Origin: Desulforamulus ruminis DSM 2154
Lineage (GTDB): Bacteria > Bacillota > Desulfotomaculia > Desulfotomaculales > Desulfotomaculaceae
Assembly: GCF_000215085.1 (NCBI RefSeq)
Contig: NC_015589.1
Span: 2,678,120 to 2,742,119 of the forward strand
Direction of reading: 5' to 3'
Length of the DNA: 64,000 bases
Shown: positions 2,462 to 12,596 of the stretch, one piece after another
Layout of the letters: each line of letters begins with the position of its first letter
Numbering within the stretch: position 1 is the stretch's first letter
Translations under genes and position numbers: made by a program
The notes under the pieces: generated by a model
Told to the model about the DNA's origin: nothing
The model's input: only the letters and a program-made list of their open reading frames with translations
The model's database searches: none

Positions 2462-2505
2462 AGAACGCGGATTGTACGGATTTCTGCGGATTTACACGGA
2501 TTTTT
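2462..2505. repeat. Third copy of the CGGATT-type intergenic repeat
   Basis: The stretch has CGGATTGTACGGATTT, then TGCGGATTT and ACACGGATTT, the same units as the inverted repeat at 71-163. It lies in the 312-base gap between rarA and the 238-residue membrane protein gene. That gap otherwise holds the rarA promoter region and the terminator at 2593-2618. Confidence 0.65.
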
Positions 2506-2592
2506 TATCTTTGTTTTAATATCTGTTCAAATGTGTATTAAATATTTCAGTTTGGCAGCATATATATTTACCTGTACTTTTCTTAACGAAAT

Positions 2593-2618
2593 AAAAAAAC
2601 ACCCTTTTTCAGGGTGTT
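2593..2618 (-). terminator. Rho-independent terminator of module copy 1
   Basis: The 8-bp stem AACACCCT/AGGGTGTT (2598-2605 and 2611-2618) has a 5-base loop and is followed on the minus strand by a T run. It lies about 24 bases after the stop of the gene ending at 2642. Confidence 0.85.
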
Positions 2619-2641
2619 CAGAATTGTTGACGTTGGGCTTA

Positions 2642-3358
2642 CTAGGCCTCGGATTTTTTTCCTCCCTTGGTCATGGTAATTCCCAACCCGCCGCAGATAT
2701 AGTAGATGGCAAAGCCATACCACAGAGTGTAGATCATGTAGAAGATTAGCATGAAGCTCATGATCCCTTTATTTTCACTAACAAACTTGGTTTCAACTCC
2801 GTAATAATTATAGGCCGGTTCAATCATCTTTTTCTGGTAGTTTTGAATATACACGGATTCAGTGAAGCTCTTTTGAACTTCTAAATCCTTAGCCACGGCC
2901 TTGGTAATGCTGTACCAGCGGTTGGTGGCATCCCGGGGATCGGTGTTGTATTTCTGCTGGACCACATCCCCTTTATTCTCAAACATGTTCATACAGTCTT
3001 CGGAAATATTGTTGAGCAGCTTACCCATATCCGCCTTTAAAGCAACGTTTGCTTTATCCACTTGAACATCTGCATCTTCAACTTTTTGCAGGGCATCAGC
3101 CCATCTTGCAGCCTGTTCTTCATCCTTGCACTTCAAATTAACAGCAATCTCAGTTCCTTCCCAGTTGGCTGCTTTTTTAACCTCACTGGTAACTACATCC
3201 TGCACGGAGCCTTTGGAGATGGAGTTAAACAAATCGTCGGCAAAGTCCAGGCCGTTTCTTCCGTTACCAAAGGAAGGGGTCATCATATAGAAATAGATGC
3301 CACAAAAGGAGATCAGCATAATCAGCCCGATGGTAAAGGCTTTACTATCTCTTATCAT
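2642..3358 (-). CDS. 238-residue membrane-anchored protein coupled to TSUP permease (copy 1)
   Basis: I do not recognise a named family. A hydrophobic segment near residues 8-27 and another near 200-226 flank a hydrophilic region of about 170 residues. Two membrane passes with the middle domain outside is the simplest topology. The region GNGRNGLDFADDLFNSISKG and the stretch RDATNRWYSITKA are nearly identical in the paralogue at 6720-7436; the middle is more diverged. The permease stop and this ATG overlap as TAATG, so translation is almost certainly coupled. Tight coupling suggests an accessory subunit or partner of the permease (inference). A terminator follows, closing the unit. Confidence 0.85.
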   Translation of the reverse strand: MIRDSKAFTIGLIMLISFCGIYFYMMTPSFGNGRNGLDFADDLFNSISKGSVQDVVTSEVKKAANWEGTEIAVNLKCKDEEQAARWADALQKVEDADVQVDKANVALKADMGKLLNNISEDCMNMFENKGDVVQQKYNTDPRDATNRWYSITKAVAKDLEVQKSFTESVYIQNYQKKMIEPAYNYYGVETKFVSENKGIMSFMLIFYMIYTLWYGFAIYYICGGLGITMTKGGKKSEA

Positions 3359-4638
3359 TAATGGCTCACTCCTTTCCCGTCCGTTACATCGGCTTTGGCG
3401 GTTTCGGCTCTCAGGGTGGGAATTCCCCGGATAAAGCTGAGGATAATCCAGCCGGCAAAGAGAATGACCAGGCCGAAGAAAATCCAGGCGCCAATATCAG
3501 CAAGGAGTTTTCCGGTTTCAGGAGTCAGCTTAATATAACCCATCTGACCCATCTTCTCAGGAAGAGCAAAGGCCCTGTTAACAAAACCCGCCAGGATGGC
3601 AATGGCGTAAAAAGCGCGAATATAGATACCGGGTACAACCTTGGTGGTGGCTGCGCCGATTTGAATGCCCAGCAGGGAGCCAACCAACATGCCCATAGCC
3701 AGGGTATAAAAGATGTAACCGTAAATAGCGTACTGTACGATAGAACTATAACCAGCGGTAAAAATAATTTGCAGGATATCCGTTCCCACGGTGGTGAAGG
3801 AGGATACGCCCAGACCGTAAACAAACATGGGGAAGGTCAGGAAGCCGCCGCCCACACCCATGATGGCTGCGGCAAAACCGACCACAGCACCGCAGATGGC
3901 TACAAACCAACCGGAAATCTGACGACCGCCCAGGTCTTCATCAAACTTCACCATGGGGGCAAGTTTAATTTTCTGCAACCGGAGGGCCAGTTTGGTCATG
4001 CCGATAGGACCGCCGTGGGCATCGCCCTTGGCTGCCTGCCCTCTGGTTTTAAGAAAATCATACATGGAGTAAAAACCCAGGAAACCAAGCATGACTACGT
4101 AAACGGCACTGATGACAAAATCACTGAACACGGGGTTCATATTAAACAGGGCCCGGTTCAGGGTACCGCCGGCGGTTACGCCGATACCGGAACCACAGAG
4201 AAAAGCGATGGCCAGAGGAATGTTAACGTTGCCCAGTTTCTTATGAATTACGGTTCCCATAATGGCCTTAGCAAAAATATGGAACTGGTCTGTACCTACG
4301 GCCAGGATCCCTTTTACGCCCAGGCTCATCAGGGCGGGAGTAATAACAAAGCCACCGCCGGCGCCGATGCAGCCGGTAATTAAGCCGGCACAAACACCCA
4401 CCGCCATGGACCCGTAGAACATAAAGGGAGTAAAGTGAGACGGTCCGAAAGCACTCTTACCGCCAAGAAATGCCGGCAGATCGGCGGCATGACCAATGGC
4501 GGGGATAATCAGGGGCAGCATCATAATCGCCAAAATCAGCAGATGTTTTCTGTTGCGGACGATATTATTGGACATTTCCAGTTCCCATTTGGCATGGGCC
4601 CTGGAGGCACTCATTAGAGCCTCATACAATCCCCTCAT
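3358..4638 (-). CDS. TauE/SafE (TSUP) family membrane permease (copy 1)
   Basis: The protein has 426 residues, long for a family often 250-300. Two glycine-rich pore motifs are visible: TGCIGAGGGFVITPAL in the first half and AAIMGVGGGFLTFPMF in the second, the internal duplication typical of TSUP proteins. An N-terminal extension of about 30 residues precedes a hydrophobic segment ending in IGHAADLP, which could be a signal peptide or an extra helix. The family moves sulfite, sulfonates, sulfoacetate or related anions; the substrate here cannot be read from sequence. The ATG at 4638 follows AAGGAGG. It is the second gene of the three-gene unit and overlaps the next gene by one base. The paralogue at 7436-8728 is very close along its whole length. 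Confidence 0.93.
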   Translation of the reverse strand: MRGLYEALMSASRAHAKWELEMSNNIVRNRKHLLILAIMMLPLIIPAIGHAADLPAFLGGKSAFGPSHFTPFMFYGSMAVGVCAGLITGCIGAGGGFVITPALMSLGVKGILAVGTDQFHIFAKAIMGTVIHKKLGNVNIPLAIAFLCGSGIGVTAGGTLNRALFNMNPVFSDFVISAVYVVMLGFLGFYSMYDFLKTRGQAAKGDAHGGPIGMTKLALRLQKIKLAPMVKFDEDLGGRQISGWFVAICGAVVGFAAAIMGVGGGFLTFPMFVYGLGVSSFTTVGTDILQIIFTAGYSSIVQYAIYGYIFYTLAMGMLVGSLLGIQIGAATTKVVPGIYIRAFYAIAILAGFVNRAFALPEKMGQMGYIKLTPETGKLLADIGAWIFFGLVILFAGWIILSFIRGIPTLRAETAKADVTDGKGVSH

Positions 4639-4773
4639 TTAGGTAACCTCCTTAAACTCGGTTATTTTGTACTAAAAAATGTGCTTGCGTTATTCATAAC
4701 CATTGCAAAATCCCAGAATAGTGCTTTTTCCTGTTGTTCAAGGTGCTTATTTCTTAAAATAGGTATTAGTCAG

Positions 4774-6192
4774 TTATGGCCTTACTGAGCTTTCCGGAGC
4801 CTCACCTCCTTTCACTGGGCCCCTTGATAGTTGATATTTAATCATCTCAAGTTGTATATGACCTGAGATAATCTCTGGAGAATAGTGATAATCCACATAC
4901 AGATTCATGGGAGGAACCTTTAGTTGGTCTCGGATGGTTTTTAAACAGTCTGTTTTGATATGAACCGTTGTAATGGCAGGAAGGATGGTATTTTTTAAAT
5001 CCTGCTTTTGAATGGCCCAGGTGCTGGTAACGATGGACCGGCACTTTTCTTTTACTTTATCCTCATGAATCTGATAGCCAAATTTCTGTGTGGCTTCGCT
5101 AAAATTGTAGCTTACCAGTTCCTGGCATTCATTGGCTTTAATGACCGCTTCCGCTTTTTTCCGGACCGCGCTTTCTTTGTTTAACTTTCCTAACAATATG
5201 TCTGCTTTAAGGGTCTCCAGCCCTGCGGAAACCCGGGCCAGATTAGCCTCTATTTCTTTTATCCGGACCTTGCTTTTTTGTTCATAACAATTCACTTTAA
5301 AGCAAATCTGATGTTCCAAGTCCACACTTCCGCTGTCCAGAGCGGTGATCTTTTCTTTCGGAATTTCACCGGCAGGTCTGGCGATCACATACCGATCACT
5401 TTTACCGCTGATGCGGTCCTCCCCATCCAAAACAACAACCGTACCATCGAATGAATTAATCAATCGGTTGACCAGTATTTGCAATTGTTCCTCCTGGTAA
5501 TGCTCAGCCGAATCGGCAACCTCAAATTCAATCAGGCTGCCATTCCCCTGGCAGGCAAGAAGCAGGTTGATTTGCTTGTGATAACTTTGAGGAATATAGA
5601 TGTTACTGGCAACATCCACATCAAAGGTGGTTCCTTCAAATACTCCCGGCAACAGGTGAATGAAAATCAAATTGTGATTTTTTTCCCTATCTTGTATGCT
5701 GGAAAGCCTGGTTTTTATTAAAGCCTGCCTTATCTTTTCTTCTCCCAATCTTTTTACCAGGTTATAAAATTGTAAGCTTGTGCCTTCCACCAGACCTAAT
5801 TCCCCACAGACCTCATGCACCGGACGATTCAATTCCCCAGCCAGCATCCCTTTAATAATGAGAGCCTCCGCTAGCTTATACTGGTTTTCATTCAAAACTT
5901 CTATTAAAGCCTCTTTCACCCGGGAACGCTCCAACTCAATTTTTACTTCCGCCACCCAGGATTCAGAGAACGGTAATTCTTTGACCTTATTCTCCGGCGT
6001 TTCTAATTCGTTGTGTAGTTTTTTGAGGCTTGAGATCAGGTAATTAATCCTGGCAGGAGAAAGATTTTCAATACTCCCGAAGTTTGCCACCACTCGCTGT
6101 TTAACCTTGCCATCCAAACGGTAATTTTCAATAAGCTTAATGTAGACGTATTCTTTACCATTTTTTTTGGTGGTAATTTTCCTGAAAAACAA
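4774..6192 (-). CDS. Degenerate IS1634-like transposase-derived protein (copy 1), probably exapted
   Basis: The protein has 472 residues. The N-terminus (MFFRKITTKKNGKEYVYIKL, then ENYRLDGKVKQRVVANFGSI) is the typical opening of IS1634/IS4-type transposases. The C-terminus IRDQLKVPPMNLYVDYHYSP followed by SGHIQLEMIK matches the region that in active enzymes reads like ErxFRxLKSxLxxRPxYHxxxxRIxGH. The catalytic Glu of that segment is not present by eye. The core keeps only weak echoes of the other acidic residues (GTTFDVD near 190, VVVLDGEDR near 255). The start is TTG at 6192 behind GAGGTGATGGGG; the paralogue at 8895-10274 also starts with TTG. I see no terminal inverted repeats. It lies upstream of the permease pair in both units, with its own promoter (6302-6330). 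A DNA-binding or regulatory role is inference. Confidence 0.75.
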   Translation of the reverse strand: MFFRKITTKKNGKEYVYIKLIENYRLDGKVKQRVVANFGSIENLSPARINYLISSLKKLHNELETPENKVKELPFSESWVAEVKIELERSRVKEALIEVLNENQYKLAEALIIKGMLAGELNRPVHEVCGELGLVEGTSLQFYNLVKRLGEEKIRQALIKTRLSSIQDREKNHNLIFIHLLPGVFEGTTFDVDVASNIYIPQSYHKQINLLLACQGNGSLIEFEVADSAEHYQEEQLQILVNRLINSFDGTVVVLDGEDRISGKSDRYVIARPAGEIPKEKITALDSGSVDLEHQICFKVNCYEQKSKVRIKEIEANLARVSAGLETLKADILLGKLNKESAVRKKAEAVIKANECQELVSYNFSEATQKFGYQIHEDKVKEKCRSIVTSTWAIQKQDLKNTILPAITTVHIKTDCLKTIRDQLKVPPMNLYVDYHYSPEIISGHIQLEMIKYQLSRGPVKGGEAPESSVRP

Positions 6193-6301
6193 ACCCCATC
6201 ACCTCTTCTCATTTAAAAGCATATTTCATATCCTAAAAAAAATATTTTAACTAAGCTCAAACGATTTTTAAAAAGGTTTTTTGTCTTTCTATTTTGGGGT
6301 A

Positions 6302-6330
6302 ATGATATAAAATGGTATTTTTGAATGCAA
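6302..6330 (-). promoter_or_regulatory. Sigma-A-type promoter of module copy 1
   Basis: On the minus strand, TTGCAT (6325-6330), 17 bases, then TATCAT (6302-6307). The same arrangement with 17-base spacing and a similar spacer is found in front of copy 2 (10446-10474). Confidence 0.7.
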
Positions 6331-6619
6331 GCACTTTTTCGCACAAAACAAAAACTTTTTTAGCCAATTATTTTATTTGTCATGAATAAATAGCCTTTAA
6401 TCATGATTATAATTGATGTGACAGAATAATATCGTCATTAAGTTTCTTCTGTTGCTTACCAGTTTTTGCTCCACTTCCGAATTAAATTTAGCACTTCTAA
6501 AGGCTAAAATACTTTTTTTGTGCTTTTTTCAAAAAATGTATTGACAAAAATTGTTCTGTTGATCTTTTTATTTAACCCATTCTGCCGTCCATTTATAGAT
6601 AACAATGAAATGAACGCAG

Positions 6620-6649
6620 AAAAGACACAGGATAAAACCTGTGTCTTTT
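6620..6649 (-). terminator. Terminator-like hairpin after module copy 2
   Basis: A 12-bp stem AAAAGACACAGG/CCTGTGTCTTTT (6620-6631 and 6638-6649) lies about 70 bases past the stop of the gene ending at 6720. The T run is short, so it may be bidirectional. Confidence 0.6.
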
Positions 6650-6719
6650 CTGACAGGGAAATGAGAAACTTCCCTACCGTGTTCCGCCTTGGGCGGGTAT
6701 TATTTTTTATAAACACCTT

Positions 6720-7436
6720 TTATGCTTCTGCTTTTTTCCCGGACTTACTCATGGTGATACCCAGACCCTGGCACAGGTAATAAATGGCGAAACCATACCA
6801 CAGGGTGTAAACCATATAAAACACCATCATAAAGGTCATCAGAGGTGCATGCTCGGAAACATGCAGGATCTCCACACCGTAATAGTTATAGGCGGGTTCG
6901 ATAACCTTCTGTTGATAACTTTGAAGTGCCAGAGATTCTTTAAAGCTCTCCTGTGCGTCAAGACTTTTGGTCATGGCCTTGGTAATATTGTACCAGCGGT
7001 TGGTTGCATCCCTGGGATCGGTATTGTATTTCTGTTGTATTACATCGCCATTATTTTCAAACATGGCCTGGCAGTCTGCGGAAATACTCGCAAATACCTT
7101 ACCCAGATCCCCTTTAAAGGAGACTACTTCCTTGTTCACACTGACCTCGGCACCTTCAACTTTTTGCAGAACTTGGGACCACCGCTCGGCCTGGCTTTCA
7201 TCCTTGCCTTTCAGCTCCACAGCAATCTCAGTACCGTCAAACTTCGCTGTTTTCTCCAGCTCGGCACCAATGACATTTTCCACGGATCCTTTTGAGATAG
7301 AATTAAACAAATCGTCGGCAAACTCCAATCCATTCCTGCCATTTCCAAAGGAGGGACTCATCATATACAGGTAAATGCCCAGGAAGGACACCATCATGAC
7401 CACGCCAATGATAAAGGCTTTACTGTCTCTAATCAT
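6720..7436 (-). CDS. 238-residue membrane-anchored protein coupled to TSUP permease (copy 2)
   Basis: It has the same length and layout as the protein at 2642-3358: an N-terminal membrane anchor, a hydrophilic domain, and a C-terminal hydrophobic segment (FMMVFYMVYTLWYGFAIYYL). The ends are nearly identical to the paralogue and the middle domain is clearly diverged, as expected if the domain binds a ligand that differs between units. It overlaps the permease stop as TAATG. The family is unrecognised. A partner role with the permease is inferred from coupling and co-duplication. Confidence 0.85.
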   Translation of the reverse strand: MIRDSKAFIIGVVMMVSFLGIYLYMMSPSFGNGRNGLEFADDLFNSISKGSVENVIGAELEKTAKFDGTEIAVELKGKDESQAERWSQVLQKVEGAEVSVNKEVVSFKGDLGKVFASISADCQAMFENNGDVIQQKYNTDPRDATNRWYNITKAMTKSLDAQESFKESLALQSYQQKVIEPAYNYYGVEILHVSEHAPLMTFMMVFYMVYTLWYGFAIYYLCQGLGITMSKSGKKAEA

Positions 7437-8728
7437 TAATGGCTCACTCCTTTCCCGCCGGCGGTTACAGCACCTTTGTCAGACTCAGCCCTCAAGATGG
7501 GAATCCCTTTGATAAAGCTAATAATAATCCAGCCGGCAAAGACAATGACCAGACCAAAGAAAATCCAGGCACCAATATCCGCAAGCAGTTTACCGGTGGA
7601 AGCCTCCATGGAAATATAGCCCATCTGAGCCATTTTTTCCGGCAGGGCAAACAAGCGGTTAACAAAACCGGCCAGAATGGCAATGGCGTAGAACGCCCGG
7701 ATATACATACCGGAAACTACTTTGGTGGTGGCTGCGCCGATCTGAATCCCCAGCAAGGAACCCACCAGCATGCCCATAGCCAGAGTATAGAAGATATAAC
7801 CATAAATCGCATATTGGGCAATGGAGCTATAACCAGCGGTAAAAATAATCTGCAGAATATCGGTTCCTACGGTGGTGAAGGAAGAAACACCCAGACCATA
7901 AACAAACATGGGGAAGGTCAGGAAGCCGCCGCCCACTCCCATGATAGCTGCGGCAAAGCCCACTACAGCACCGCAAGCGGCTACAAACCAGCCGGAAATC
8001 TTGCGGCCGCCGGGAGTAATGTCTTCGTCAAAGGTCACCATGGGTGCAAGATTAATTTTTTGCAGTTTAACCGCCAGCGGGGTTAAACCCGCAGGACCGC
8101 CGTGGACGTCTTGGCTCTGGTTCTTGTCGCCCCTGGATTTAAGAAAGTCATACATGGAATAAAAGCCCAGGAAGCCCAGCATGACGACATAAACAGAACT
8201 AATCATAAAATCACTCATTACCGGGTTAGCGTTAAACAGAGCCCGGTTCAAGGTTCCGCCTGCGGTTACCCCGATACCGGAACCTACCAGGAAGGCAATG
8301 GCCAAAGCCACATTCACGTTCCCTAATTTTTTATGAATAACCGTACCCATAATGGCCTTGGCAAAAATATGGAACTGGTCAGTACCTACGGCCAGAATCC
8401 CTTTAACACCTAAGCTCATTAATGCAGGGGTGATTACAAAGCCACCGCCGGCACCGATACAGCCGGTAATCAATCCGGCACAAACACCCACTGCCATGGA
8501 GCCGTAAAACATAACCGGATTATAGTGGGAAGGTCCATAGGCGCTTTTCCCTCCGATAAATGCGGGAAGGTCCGCCGCGTGGCCAATGGCAGGAATAATC
8601 AAGGGAAGCATCATAACAGCTAAAATAAGCAAATGCTTTCTGTTGCGGACAATGTTGTTGGACATTTCCAGTTCCCATTTAGCATGGGCTCTGGATGCAG
8701 ACATCAGGGCATTAAATATTCCCCTCAT
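7436..8728 (-). CDS. TauE/SafE (TSUP) family membrane permease (copy 2)
   Basis: The protein has 430 residues and is nearly collinear with the permease at 3358-4638. It has the same glycine-rich repeats (TGCIGAGGGFVITPAL and AAIMGVGGGFLTFPMF) and the same N-terminal extension before a signal-like hydrophobic segment. The main differences fall in the cytosolic loop around residues 195-225 and at the C-terminus. The ATG at 8728 follows AAAGGAGG. It lies downstream of the transposase-like gene and is translationally coupled to the 238-residue protein. The substrate is probably a sulfur oxyanion or organosulfur anion by family knowledge, but this is not shown. Confidence 0.93.
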   Translation of the reverse strand: MRGIFNALMSASRAHAKWELEMSNNIVRNRKHLLILAVMMLPLIIPAIGHAADLPAFIGGKSAYGPSHYNPVMFYGSMAVGVCAGLITGCIGAGGGFVITPALMSLGVKGILAVGTDQFHIFAKAIMGTVIHKKLGNVNVALAIAFLVGSGIGVTAGGTLNRALFNANPVMSDFMISSVYVVMLGFLGFYSMYDFLKSRGDKNQSQDVHGGPAGLTPLAVKLQKINLAPMVTFDEDITPGGRKISGWFVAACGAVVGFAAAIMGVGGGFLTFPMFVYGLGVSSFTTVGTDILQIIFTAGYSSIAQYAIYGYIFYTLAMGMLVGSLLGIQIGAATTKVVSGMYIRAFYAIAILAGFVNRLFALPEKMAQMGYISMEASTGKLLADIGAWIFFGLVIVFAGWIIISFIKGIPILRAESDKGAVTAGGKGVSH

Positions 8729-8894
8729 GCAGGCAACCTCCTTTAGCGTTCATACAAAGTACTTTCTAACTCTTATCCGGATTGTAGTGACAAATATTTA
8801 GTACTTTCTGGCAAGCAGTTCTTGAATAAAGCCCTATAAAGTGCTACAATTTAAAATGAATAGCAAAATTAACAGTTGAAAATTTATTTGCGCC

Positions 8895-10274
8895 TTAGGC
8901 TTCACCCCCTTGCCGTGATTCATTCAGAGTCCTGGTTATTTTTTGTTTAATAATCTCGAGTTGAATGTGACCCGAGATAATTTCCGGGGAATAGTGGTAA
9001 TCTACATACATGTTAATGGGCGGCATTTTTAATTGATCGGTTATTACTCTAAAAGTGCTTGTTTTCACAGGAATACTGTCGAATACAGGCACAAAAGCGG
9101 CTGTGGGTTCAACAACCCAGGTCTGAGTAATAATGGATTGATTTTTTTGTTTAACCGCTTCTTCATTAATTTGATACTCAAAGGTTTGAGTTAATTCATT
9201 AAAGCTAAAGGATACCATATCCTGGCAATTATTGGTTTTGATCACGGATTCGGCTTTGCGCCTGACAACCGCCTCTTTATTTACATTCCCCAGCAAAATA
9301 TCTGCTTTAATGGTTTCCAACCCCGCACAGGCCTTGGCCAAATTGGCTTTAACCTCTTTCATTTGAGTTGGACTTTTTTGTTCATAAGAAACCGTAGTAA
9401 AGAATTGCTTTCCCTGGAGAACTTCGTGGTTCTGGTTGTTGTTAATGTCTTCCGGAACTTCTCTAGCCACCAGATAATTGGCAGCCCCGGTGCTTAAAAG
9501 GTTTTCACCGTCCAGAACAAGCATGGGATGGTCCGTTTTACAGGCTAATCGATCAATTAGTTGATGTAAACGATCTTGTATTTCTTTTTTTTCCTCGGCG
9601 TATTCAAAATCCATAACGAAGCCTTGAATGTCACAGGCTAACAAAAGAATAAAGGGTTTTTGATAATTCTGAGGGTAAAAAAGGCTCCCCGGAAGATCCA
9701 TTTCAAAAGAAGTGCCCTCAAATATCCCAGTGGTTAAACTGACAAATCTTGGTTTGTGAATAATTTCATTACTTCCGGCGTAAAGCAGACCCCCGGTATT
9801 TAGGACAGCCCTGGTCCTTTCCTCCCCCAACTGCTTCATAATCTGATAGAATTGCAAACTGGTGGCGTTGATGAATCCCAATTCTTTGCAGGACTCCTGA
9901 ATAGGGCTGTTTACTTCTCCGGCCAGCAATGACTTCAGCAGCATGGCTTCAGCCACCTCATAGGTTTGACCTTCTCCCAGCACCTGGACCAAGCCGCCTT
10001 TTATGCCTGTACTGGAAAGAATATTTCGTACTTCGGAAATCCGGCTATCCCCCAAGGACATTGCAGATTCCTTATCCTGTATATCCAGCTCGTTGTGCAG
10101 TTTTCTCAGGCTGGCAATCAAATAGTTAATTCTTTCGGGAGAAAGATTATCAATGCTGCCAAAGTTCGCAATGACACGTTGTTTTACCTTACCTTCCATA
10201 CGGTAATTTTCAATAAGTTTTACATAAACATACTCTTTGCCGTTTTTTTTGGTGGTAATTTTACGGAAAAACAA
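8895..10274 (-). CDS. Degenerate IS1634-like transposase-derived protein (copy 2), probably exapted
   Basis: The protein has 459 residues. Its first 64 residues differ from the copy 1 protein at only about nine conservative positions, and its C-terminal block PPINMYVDYHYSPEIISG plus HIQLEIIK differs at three positions. The central 250 residues are strongly diverged. Active IS copies in one genome normally stay near-identical throughout, so this pattern points to an old duplication with constraint on the ends. The conserved catalytic Glu of IS1634 enzymes is not visible here either. The start is TTG at 10274 after GGGGGGAAG. No terminal inverted repeats are seen. It has its own promoter (10446-10474). 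Confidence 0.75.
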   Translation of the reverse strand: MFFRKITTKKNGKEYVYVKLIENYRMEGKVKQRVIANFGSIDNLSPERINYLIASLRKLHNELDIQDKESAMSLGDSRISEVRNILSSTGIKGGLVQVLGEGQTYEVAEAMLLKSLLAGEVNSPIQESCKELGFINATSLQFYQIMKQLGEERTRAVLNTGGLLYAGSNEIIHKPRFVSLTTGIFEGTSFEMDLPGSLFYPQNYQKPFILLLACDIQGFVMDFEYAEEKKEIQDRLHQLIDRLACKTDHPMLVLDGENLLSTGAANYLVAREVPEDINNNQNHEVLQGKQFFTTVSYEQKSPTQMKEVKANLAKACAGLETIKADILLGNVNKEAVVRRKAESVIKTNNCQDMVSFSFNELTQTFEYQINEEAVKQKNQSIITQTWVVEPTAAFVPVFDSIPVKTSTFRVITDQLKMPPINMYVDYHYSPEIISGHIQLEIIKQKITRTLNESRQGGEA

Positions 10275-10445
10275 GGTCTTCCCCCCTTTATCCCGTTTAA
10301 AAAATTTGTAATTTCATAAAAAGTTCGTAATCCAATTGACATTAAGTTTTATCAAAAACTACTTAGTTTTTTAAAAAAATTTAAAAAGATAATCTTATGC
10401 TTTTGTTATGAAAAAATTCTTCTTTGTGGTCTATTATTTGGGGTT

Positions 10446-10474
10446 ATGCTATCAAAAGGTTTTTTTGATTTCAA
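10446..10474 (-). promoter_or_regulatory. Sigma-A-type promoter of module copy 2
   Basis: On the minus strand, TTGAAA (10469-10474), 17 bases, TAGCAT (10446-10451). Spacer composition and flanking bases resemble the copy 1 promoter. Confidence 0.65.
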
Positions 10475-10562
10475 GTTTTATTTTGCACAAATTCAATTTT
10501 TCTTTTGCTATTTTTCGATGTTTTCATCACACTATATCCAATATAACCACATTATCGTCTGT

Positions 10563-10583
10563 ATGACAAAAATCATTTGTCAT
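10563..10583. promoter_or_regulatory. Candidate regulator site, 8-bp dyad
   Basis: ATGACAAA, 5 bases, TTTGTCAT: a perfect dyad about 90 bases upstream of the -35 of module copy 2. This position fits an activator site. Related TTTGTCATGA and TGTGACAG words occur in the copy 1 region near 6377 and 6417. Confidence 0.4.
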
Positions 10584-10750
10584 TACCCGGATTTGTACGA
10601 CAATTTTAGAATTTTTGTTTTATCTTACTCCTGTTTTTTGGAAGTCAAAGTTAAATTTACCAATTATAAAATTTTAAAAAATATTTTTTAAAAAACTATT
10701 GACAAAATTATTTATTTAAGCTTGTACTTCAAAAGCCCCTCTCCGATGAC

Positions 10751-10791
10751 AAAGAATGAACCCGCCATGGTTGCCGGCGGGTTCATTCTTT
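10751..10791 (-). terminator. Strong hairpin after the VWA gene
   Basis: A perfect 16-bp stem (10751-10766 with 10776-10791) and a 9-base loop lie directly after the stop at 10800. There is no long T run, so it may act in both directions. Confidence 0.75.
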
Positions 10792-10799
10792 GTTGTAAC

Positions 10800-12596
10800 C
10801 TATTCTTCTTCAACAAGTTTTTTGAGCAATCTGCCAAATTCAATAACCACCGTATTATAATCACTCCAGGGGATGCTGTGTTCATACCCATAGTCCCCCG
10901 GTCGATCTCCCACAGAAATATGAATGGTTTTACATCCCAGGTTCTTCAGGCGGCGCACCTGTTCTTTAACCAGCTTGGTTTCAGGTCCCGGATTGGGGTT
11001 TCCATCGGTGATAACAATTAAAACCTTCTGCACCCACCTTCTGCCCTCGGACATTAACCGGAGAGCGCAATATTTTACCGCACTGCCCTCCGGGGTGGTT
11101 CCTTCCGCTCCGGACATGCCCAGGCGTGCCTTCTGGGTAAGGGAGGGGGAATACAGTTCCTGCATATTTACCGCCACTTTGAGGTTAAATCCAAAGACCC
11201 AGGTCTGCACCGAATCCACCGGTTCCATGGCTTCCACGAACAAGGCGGCCAGATTTCTAGCCAGTTCGATTCTGGATATTCCTTCGGCGGCCGGGTAAAC
11301 CATGGAGGCGCTGGTATCGATCAATAAAGCCATATCTAAATTGCGGGTTCGCGTTTCAATCACTTCCGAACGTTGGAAAAGCTTATTGGAGTAAGCCGCC
11401 TGATAAAGGGCGTCCTCGTCCAGTTCCCCGCTGGGCAGGTGGTATTGGTGAATGACCTGACGGGTATTGGCCCAAGACAATCGGTTTCTTAACCGGATAA
11501 TAAAGGGCTTCACGGTGGTTCTGGCCTTTTCGTAGCGTTCTGCGGCCCCTTCATCCATCACTGGCCTCCGAAACACCACCATGGGAGGCGGTGGCGGGGG
11601 ATAATCGGGATCCAGACCTGCTTCCATAATTTCCGCCATATTGGCCACCTGAAGCTGTTCCTGGCGCATATTTTGGATCAAGTTTTGCAAATCACTGGGA
11701 ATGTTGGTTCTATCTTTGGCACCGGCACTTCCTGTTTCTGCCTGGTAGTCGCCCCGATTCTGGTAATCCAGCAGTGAGCTGGGGAGAGAATAAGCAATAT
11801 CATGCTGGATCATGTTCCCGAACAGTTCATTATAGGCCCTTTTGGCTAGGTTGCGGGTGCTTAATCTTTTTAAACGATCCGGATTGTCGATTAAAACCGC
11901 CTTTTTTACCAGGTCTACCACCTGTTGAACCCTGGCCACCGAGGGTTTATAGTCCCGGGTGGATCTCAGAGCCAGCAAAAATTCGGTGGCACGCAGATTT
12001 AACTCGTTCTCCATTAAATTCTTACGGGGTTTGTGGGCCCATTTCTCCAGATCAAGATCAAATTCGTACCGGCGGTACTTCCAGAAATATCCCCTGTAGC
12101 CGGGATAATAAAGAGAGGTTAAATGCTCCACAAAAACCTCCTCTACCACCTTGCGTATGACGGCCATGAAAGGATTTCCCGGCATTTCGGTATAGAATTC
12201 CGGACTGCTGAACTGGGCATGGGCCGCTTGGTGCAGAGCCATGCCGGTTAAAACATCCACAATATCCGGCAATAAATAACAAGGAGGCGGGTCCATCAGG
12301 GGTTCGGCGCTGAGAGCGATTTGCTTTCTGGCAAAATCCGTCCGGGTCTCTTTGGAAGAGAAATGAACGGTAAATTTATTCCGGCCGTGAACGATATCCA
12401 CCACCCTGGAAACCGCTCCCAGAATAGCGGTCATGACCATAGCCTGGGCATCCATATCCTCCGAGGCCAACAGCCGGTGACTGAAAAGAGCGCAATTCCC
12501 GTGATTCGCCCCGTCGCCTTCCAATCCCCGGCCGGAGAGCCAAAAATCCGAAAGACTTTTTGTTTTCCAGCCTTCTGTTGGATTCACTGCAGTCAA
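10800..12596 (-). CDS. VWA-domain protein, partner of MoxR-type ATPase
   Basis: The protein has about 598 residues. The C-terminal third is a von Willebrand A domain with an intact metal site: LLIDTSASM, a threonine in GAEGTTPEGSAVKY, and VLIVITDGNPNPG. The N-terminal part is largely helical and includes an HQAAHAQFSSPEFY segment; the overall plan resembles CobT/NorD-like VWA partners of MoxR ATPases. The ATG at 12611 lies inside the sequence GGAGGTGA, which looks like the ribosome binding site. I therefore take TTG at 12596 as the more likely start. The gene follows the MoxR gene by about 65 bases. Such pairs act as chaperones for metal insertion or complex assembly; the target here is unknown. 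Confidence 0.85.
   Translation of the reverse strand: MTAVNPTEGWKTKSLSDFWLSGRGLEGDGANHGNCALFSHRLLASEDMDAQAMVMTAILGAVSRVVDIVHGRNKFTVHFSSKETRTDFARKQIALSAEPLMDPPPCYLLPDIVDVLTGMALHQAAHAQFSSPEFYTEMPGNPFMAVIRKVVEEVFVEHLTSLYYPGYRGYFWKYRRYEFDLDLEKWAHKPRKNLMENELNLRATEFLLALRSTRDYKPSVARVQQVVDLVKKAVLIDNPDRLKRLSTRNLAKRAYNELFGNMIQHDIAYSLPSSLLDYQNRGDYQAETGSAGAKDRTNIPSDLQNLIQNMRQEQLQVANMAEIMEAGLDPDYPPPPPPMVVFRRPVMDEGAAERYEKARTTVKPFIIRLRNRLSWANTRQVIHQYHLPSGELDEDALYQAAYSNKLFQRSEVIETRTRNLDMALLIDTSASMVYPAAEGISRIELARNLAALFVEAMEPVDSVQTWVFGFNLKVAVNMQELYSPSLTQKARLGMSGAEGTTPEGSAVKYCALRLMSEGRRWVQKVLIVITDGNPNPGPETKLVKEQVRRLKNLGCKTIHISVGDRPGDYGYEHSIPWSDYNTVVIEFGRLLKKLVEEE

Follow-up and report, generated by a model that had tools for sequence, protein, structure and literature searches.

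A domesticated, catalytically dead IS1634 transposase as a putative DNA-binding regulator of anion transport in Desulfotomaculia

Results

Two transposase-like genes head a tandem duplication

We examined a window of 64,000 nucleotides from Desulforamulus ruminis DSM 2154, whose genome is one contig of 3.97 Mb and whose close relatives are Desulforamulus putei, aeronauticus and aquiferis. The gene under study occupies positions 4774–6192, as given in the original prediction, and is encoded on the minus strand; the plus-strand frame contains 19 stops. Its product, P0001, has 472 aa, and a paralogue of 459 aa, P0002, is encoded at 8895–10274, also on the minus strand. Both start with TTG. The two proteins are 51% identical overall, with 85% identity over residues 1–66, 44% in the core and 56% over residues 406–460. 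We counted exactly nine differences in 64 N-terminal residues, where about nine had been predicted, and the C-terminal block expected to be common to the pair, VDYHYSPEIISGHIQLE, was found in both.

The N-terminal domain of P0001 (residues 1–66; 5995–6192, minus strand), which stands out by its conservation between the paralogues, is predicted to form a three-stranded sheet and a helix and is a putative DNA-binding domain. A comparison of residues 1–77 with known DNA-binding folds gave no significant match; the best Foldseek hit was an integrase arm-type domain (E 0.2), and VIA Z was at most 4.2.

P0001 and P0002 are each encoded by the first gene of one unit of a tandem duplication whose units recur at intervals of about 4.08 kb. 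The transposase-like gene is followed in each unit by a TauE/TSUP permease (3358–4638 downstream of P0001, PF01925 E 5e-35; 7436–8728 downstream of P0002, PF01925 E 2e-35) and then by a gene for a 238-aa protein that overlaps the permease end (2642–3358 and 6720–7436), all on the minus strand. Pfam and NCBIfam searches placed the 238-aa protein in no family above cut-off. Across the order it is kept at 35–75% identity, paired with a TauE-type permease whose end it overlaps, and it is a candidate partner subunit of that permease class.

The proteins descend from IS1634 transposases

Searches of Pfam and NCBIfam with P0001 found nothing above cut-off. On NF033559, the IS1634 profile with a curated cut-off of 100 bits, P0001 gave no match and P0002 a faint one (14.8 bits, E 0.011). 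Relatives fell into three classes by size, which we call DR (about 465 aa, including the window proteins), M (about 490 aa) and X (about 555 aa). The X proteins scored 187–242 bits on NF033559 (E 1e-55 to 1e-71), above cut-off, though without the catalytic triad, and the M proteins reached about E 1e-13 to 1e-22. This suggests that IS1634 annotation by profile score alone can include host proteins.

We then searched the order with a profile of 70 N-terminal residues. It matched 61 places at E ≤1.6e-30, and the remaining IS1634 copies, both complete and degraded, at E ≥5.8e-17. Strong hits occurred in 53 of the 113 genomes of the order, mostly one per genome, and genomes sampled elsewhere in the phylum gave no hit at E 1e-18 or better. 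Eighteen residues of the domain are invariant across the DR, M and X classes. Because this domain is common to the relatives of about 555 and 490 aa and to the window proteins, P0001 and P0002 can be traced to IS1634. In a tree the co-opted proteins lay on one side of a branch (SH-aLRT 99) and genuine IS1634 transposases on the other, with seven genuine members included and with long branches inside the co-opted set that make its inner order uncertain. The N-terminal domain, the bridging subfamilies and the tree thus all place these proteins in common descent with IS1634 transposases. The family gene was also present in 51 of 75 dsrA-positive genomes and in 2 of the 38 others; this link is strong but confounded by phylogeny, and we gave it no weight.

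Like the transposases described by NF033559, the window proteins have the N-terminal domain pattern, the C-terminal block that comes after the catalytic Glu site and a predicted RNase-H-like fold, and a graded set of relatives spans the distance in sequence between them. Unlike those transposases, they score far below the cut-off, lack the triad and terminal repeats, and are encoded at a fixed position, mostly in a single copy.

The catalytic triad is lost and the fold is predicted to persist

As had been proposed with the original prediction, we aligned the family with IS1634 transposases and predicted the structure. The alignment comprised 58 co-opted members and genuine IS1634 transposases of the same order, in which D, D and E were intact in seven of seven. 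No intact DDE triad was found in the window proteins: the first D is replaced by H or S and the E by T, in both of them, which bears out the earlier remark that no catalytic Glu is visible. The first Asp (D1) was missing in 58 of 58 co-opted members and the Glu in 56 of 58, and the second Asp (D2) survives in most members of the longest class, that of about 555 aa. In the Desulforamulus proteins an invariant D256, in a VLD motif, ends a predicted strand of the RNase-H-like domain. Judged by eye against VLDRG in a genuine transposase, D256 probably occupies the second catalytic position, so that one acidic residue of the triad may survive in the window proteins.

The AF2 model of the window protein (pLDDT 74.8) has an RNase-H-like transposase fold. 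Its best structural matches were the Tn5 transposase (VIA Z 11.1 over 268 residues, rmsd 6.0) and ISCth4. An inverted-repeat search found no inverted pair bracketing P0001 or P0002, in agreement with the claim that neither gene is flanked by such repeats.

In two M-class members, L125 and L126 (genomes G073 and G074), D1 is missing, but the catalytic Glu position is still occupied by Glu and there is an Asp close to D2. A TSUP or DASS gene was not found near either, and they are possibly an early-branching or differently used form.

The persistence of the predicted fold, the Asp kept near D2 and the Glu of these two members are features that an active but unusual transposase or nuclease with other catalytic residues might show. 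Such an enzyme is nevertheless very improbable, given that D1 is gone from every member aligned, that the window genes have no terminal repeats and that the gene is mostly single copy at a conserved place.

A fixed host gene under purifying selection

In eight of the eight other Desulforamulus genomes the gene adjoins an AAA/VWA pair and lies directly upstream of TauE. Within the sequence read, RarA is found on the far side in six of them; of the two in which it was not seen, one is an incomplete assembly with broken frames. With two tandem copies in the host genome and a conserved place in the genus, the gene does not have the distribution of a mobile element. Since the triad is missing, terminal repeats are absent and the position is fixed across the genus, we conclude that transposition has been lost. 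Separately, the G009 orthologue (L031/L045) is interrupted in the N-terminal domain, near residue 28, by an in-frame TAA with a short insertion; this may be an assembly error, as the contig name gives 2.1x coverage.

It had been proposed that dN/dS be estimated along the P0001–P0002 pair. In that pair dS was saturated, and closer pairs were used. In 13 of these, dN/dS was 0.065–0.25, and dN was lowest at the N-terminus in most. The original prediction, that selection keeps the ends of the protein and not transposition, agrees with the lost triad, the absent terminal repeats, the fixed position and the N-terminal maximum of purifying selection; it does not describe the core well. The central residues have diverged between the paralogues, as the core identity given above indicates, but they are not simply drifting: core dN is well below dS in the closer pairs, and many core residues are invariant throughout the genus.

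Open frames of at least 430 aa were found in 56 copies outside the window. A decaying IS1634 remnant, that is, a pseudogene in progress that hitch-hikes with the transporter genes, would explain why the catalytic residues are gone and why a few copies, in the incomplete assemblies G007 and G009, have disrupted frames. A neutral remnant, however, would not keep its frame open for so long, nor would it be expected to show a dN/dS well below 1 and the invariant N-terminal residues, and we consider this explanation barely credible. Together, vertical inheritance, purifying selection and the loss of mobility make the domestication of an IS1634-type transposase near-certain.

Putative anion transporter genes lie near most copies of the co-opted gene

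We next considered the neighbouring genes. A TSUP, DASS or CitMHS gene lay within 3 kb of the co-opted gene in 42 of 54 loci, and within 1 kb in 40, compared with 0 of 20 control loci of genuine IS1634 genes; in this count the reference proteins were taken from the same neighbourhoods, several of the loci are close relatives, and about a dozen genomes supplied the controls. Work on sulfate reducers has looked for their sulfate transporters in families that include TSUP and DASS (PMC5840216). Genes for CBS-domain proteins, acyl-CoA synthetases or CoA-transferases were also close to the gene in many loci. Among the annotated neighbours, which are not all of the neighbours, no other recognised DNA-binding gene was common to the loci.

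A palindrome and its half-site mark the putative regulatory regions

An alignment of the regions upstream of 15 Desulforamulus-type genes revealed a conserved block resembling a sigma-A promoter and, upstream of it, a 19-bp palindrome, TGACAAA-N5-TTTGTCA. In the window the putative promoter, recognised from this block of the alignment, lies at 10446–10474 for P0002 (TTGAAA, 17 bp, TAGCAT) and at 6302–6330 for P0001 (TTGCAT, 17 bp, TATCAT), on the minus strand in both cases. The palindrome upstream of P0002, TGACAAAAATCATTTGTCA (10564–10582), is the sole copy that the 3.97-Mb genome contains when up to one mismatch is allowed. TauE leaders usually contain two TTTGTCA boxes, mostly 87–91 bp apart, and our box search located GTAGTGACAAA in the leader of permease 2 (8784–8794, plus strand). 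In the P0001 unit, the site that aligns with the palindromes of the orthologues, TGACGATATTATTCTGTCA (6419–6437, minus-strand reading), is degenerate, with three mismatches, and the permease leader is without TTTGTCA. To judge from these sites, the specificity of P0001 may have changed, or its own site may have been lost.

Across nine genomes, all six exact copies of the 19-bp palindrome were upstream of transposase-like genes, and palindromes with one mismatch occurred elsewhere at about the level of a reversed-pattern control. In the X and M loci the exact palindrome was not enriched (3 seen and 3.2 expected, at ≤2 mismatches) and was rejected as their common element; the half-site alone was common there. 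We defined an extended half-site, the 10-mer GTRRTGACAA, after inspecting two classes, leaving the M class aside. It was enriched upstream of all three classes, with 8 seen against 0.03 expected from shuffles in the M class; genuine IS1634 genes were not preceded by it. In about 20 X-class members the 400 bp upstream of the gene contain no exact 10-mer, and in some of these there is only the shorter TGACAA.

The 11-mer GTRRTGACAAA occurred 77 times in 0.73 Mb of loci, where its frequency in the remainder of these genomes predicts 1.8, an enrichment of about 43-fold. These copies are mostly intergenic and precede the co-opted gene or TSUP, CBS, CitMHS, DASS, CoA-transferase or ACS genes. Whole carrier genomes contained 492 copies in 172 Mb, against 412 of the reversed-pattern control; non-carriers contained 306 against 411. 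A large genome-wide regulon was ruled out, the box being near background outside the loci. Thus both the neighbouring genes and a cis element are conserved, as would be expected of a local transcription regulator. From these patterns in the DNA we infer that a protein of the P0001/P0002 type binds the box and controls transcription.

The box has another conceivable reading at the RNA level. A leader of 140–180 nt with conserved blocks precedes TauE, and it could be a riboswitch-like element whose regulation has nothing to do with the protein. This is quite improbable: the leader gave no consensus RNA fold (-1.1 kcal/mol, 3 pairs), an Rfam search of positions 2500–11200 found nothing above gathering score, and the box occurs in either orientation and forms a palindrome upstream of the promoter, which suits recognition as DNA.

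In genomes G006 (L027) and G004 (L025), one of two units of TauE and the 238-aa gene is without a transposase-like gene. Both gene-less units keep the boxes, the promoter-like region and the leader, as if the coding region alone had been removed, and the retention of the boxes there fits action in trans.

Boxes elsewhere in the host genome

The host genome has 12 copies of the 11-mer (per 4 Mb), compared with 7 for the reversed control. Two of the 12 are in the tandem-duplicated region, at P0002 and permease 2. Four of the other ten precede genes of similar types, namely two TSUP genes, one CBS gene and one SAF-domain gene; in one TSUP case the box overlaps the longest ORF yet precedes the likely start. 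The remaining six lie inside genes or at a ribosome-binding site.

The CBS gene preceded by a box is homologous to the CBS neighbours of X loci (E 2e-27). It encodes a stand-alone CBS protein (L199, 1598–2185; host genome near 1871682) weakly similar to the c-di-AMP-binding CbpB. The SAF-domain gene is followed by a galactarate/altronate-dehydratase-like gene, so that separate SAF-domain and GD_AH-type genes stand after the box GTAGTGACAAA (L196, 1–1237; host genome near 624347). Such an arrangement presumably also fits a candidate two-subunit sulfolactate sulfo-lyase. If the pair is that enzyme, the box would be tied to sulfonate metabolism.

The distribution of the box bears on one further explanation, that the gene is domesticated but is only a target: some other sulfur- or redox-responsive regulator would bind the boxes, and the protein would have another DNA-linked role. 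This explanation accounts just as well for boxes before both the gene and the transporters; there are also two TauE units in which the boxes persist although the gene is absent, and the boxes are degenerate in P0001's own unit. On the other hand, the box is infrequent over whole genomes and only carriers of the gene have it in excess, every exact palindrome found lies upstream of a transposase-like gene, and the neighbours, as far as annotated, offer no other common DNA-binding gene. We judge a separate regulator to be unlikely, though by no means negligible.

Discussion

We propose, with a probability of about 0.74, that P0001 and P0002 belong to a family of domesticated, catalytically dead IS1634 transposases that are putative DNA-binding regulators of anion transport. 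In an ancestor of some of the Desulfotomaculia, an IS1634-type transposase would have lost its mobility and become a DNA-binding regulator of its host. Its conserved N-terminal domain would recognise GTRRTGACAA(A), possibly as a dimer on the palindrome, which in Desulforamulus lies before the regulator's own gene, whereas the TSUP permease leader has single boxes. Dimerisation, sensing or contact with RNA polymerase may be the reason why the dead RNase-H-like core and the C-terminal block have been retained. Acting in trans, the regulator would control its own gene and TSUP, DASS and CitMHS transporters of sulfur-containing or related anions, which have CBS-domain and CoA-linked genes as neighbours. 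With somewhat less assurance, we also favour the broader view that a DDE transposase, domesticated in an ancestor of the Desulfotomaculia, gave rise to a transcription factor family whose operator is GTRRTGACAAA and whose small regulon comprises transporters of sulfur anions, sensors with CBS domains and CoA-linked genes.

TldR is the nearest bacterial parallel. There too a transposon nuclease has lost its catalytic residues and now regulates host genes. TldR, however, derives from TnpB and is RNA-guided, whereas here the ancestor is a DDE transposase, and a protein DNA-binding domain with a fixed operator is proposed. It is well known that animal hosts have co-opted transcription factors from transposases. 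In those factors (PMC10027918) the DNA-binding part of a transposase is likewise reused as a regulator; they are eukaryotic and come from other transposon superfamilies. A review of mobile elements recruited in bacteria covers regulators derived from phages and antitoxins and does not use the term DDE (PMC8987985), and a comparative survey of the transporters of sulfate reducers discusses no regulator, the word itself being absent (PMC5840216). Our literature search found neither a domesticated IS1634 element nor a bacterial regulator derived from a DDE transposase, an absence that is weak evidence because subscription literature was thinly covered.

Sulfate uptake by sulfate reducers is poorly understood. 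The family described here specifies which protein, which DNA box and which candidate targets to examine, and the idea is thus directly testable. If the proposal is true, bacteria would have in this family a counterpart of the transcription factors that animals have derived from transposases, and the family would be a candidate to control how Gram-positive sulfate reducers transport sulfate, sulfite or sulfonates.
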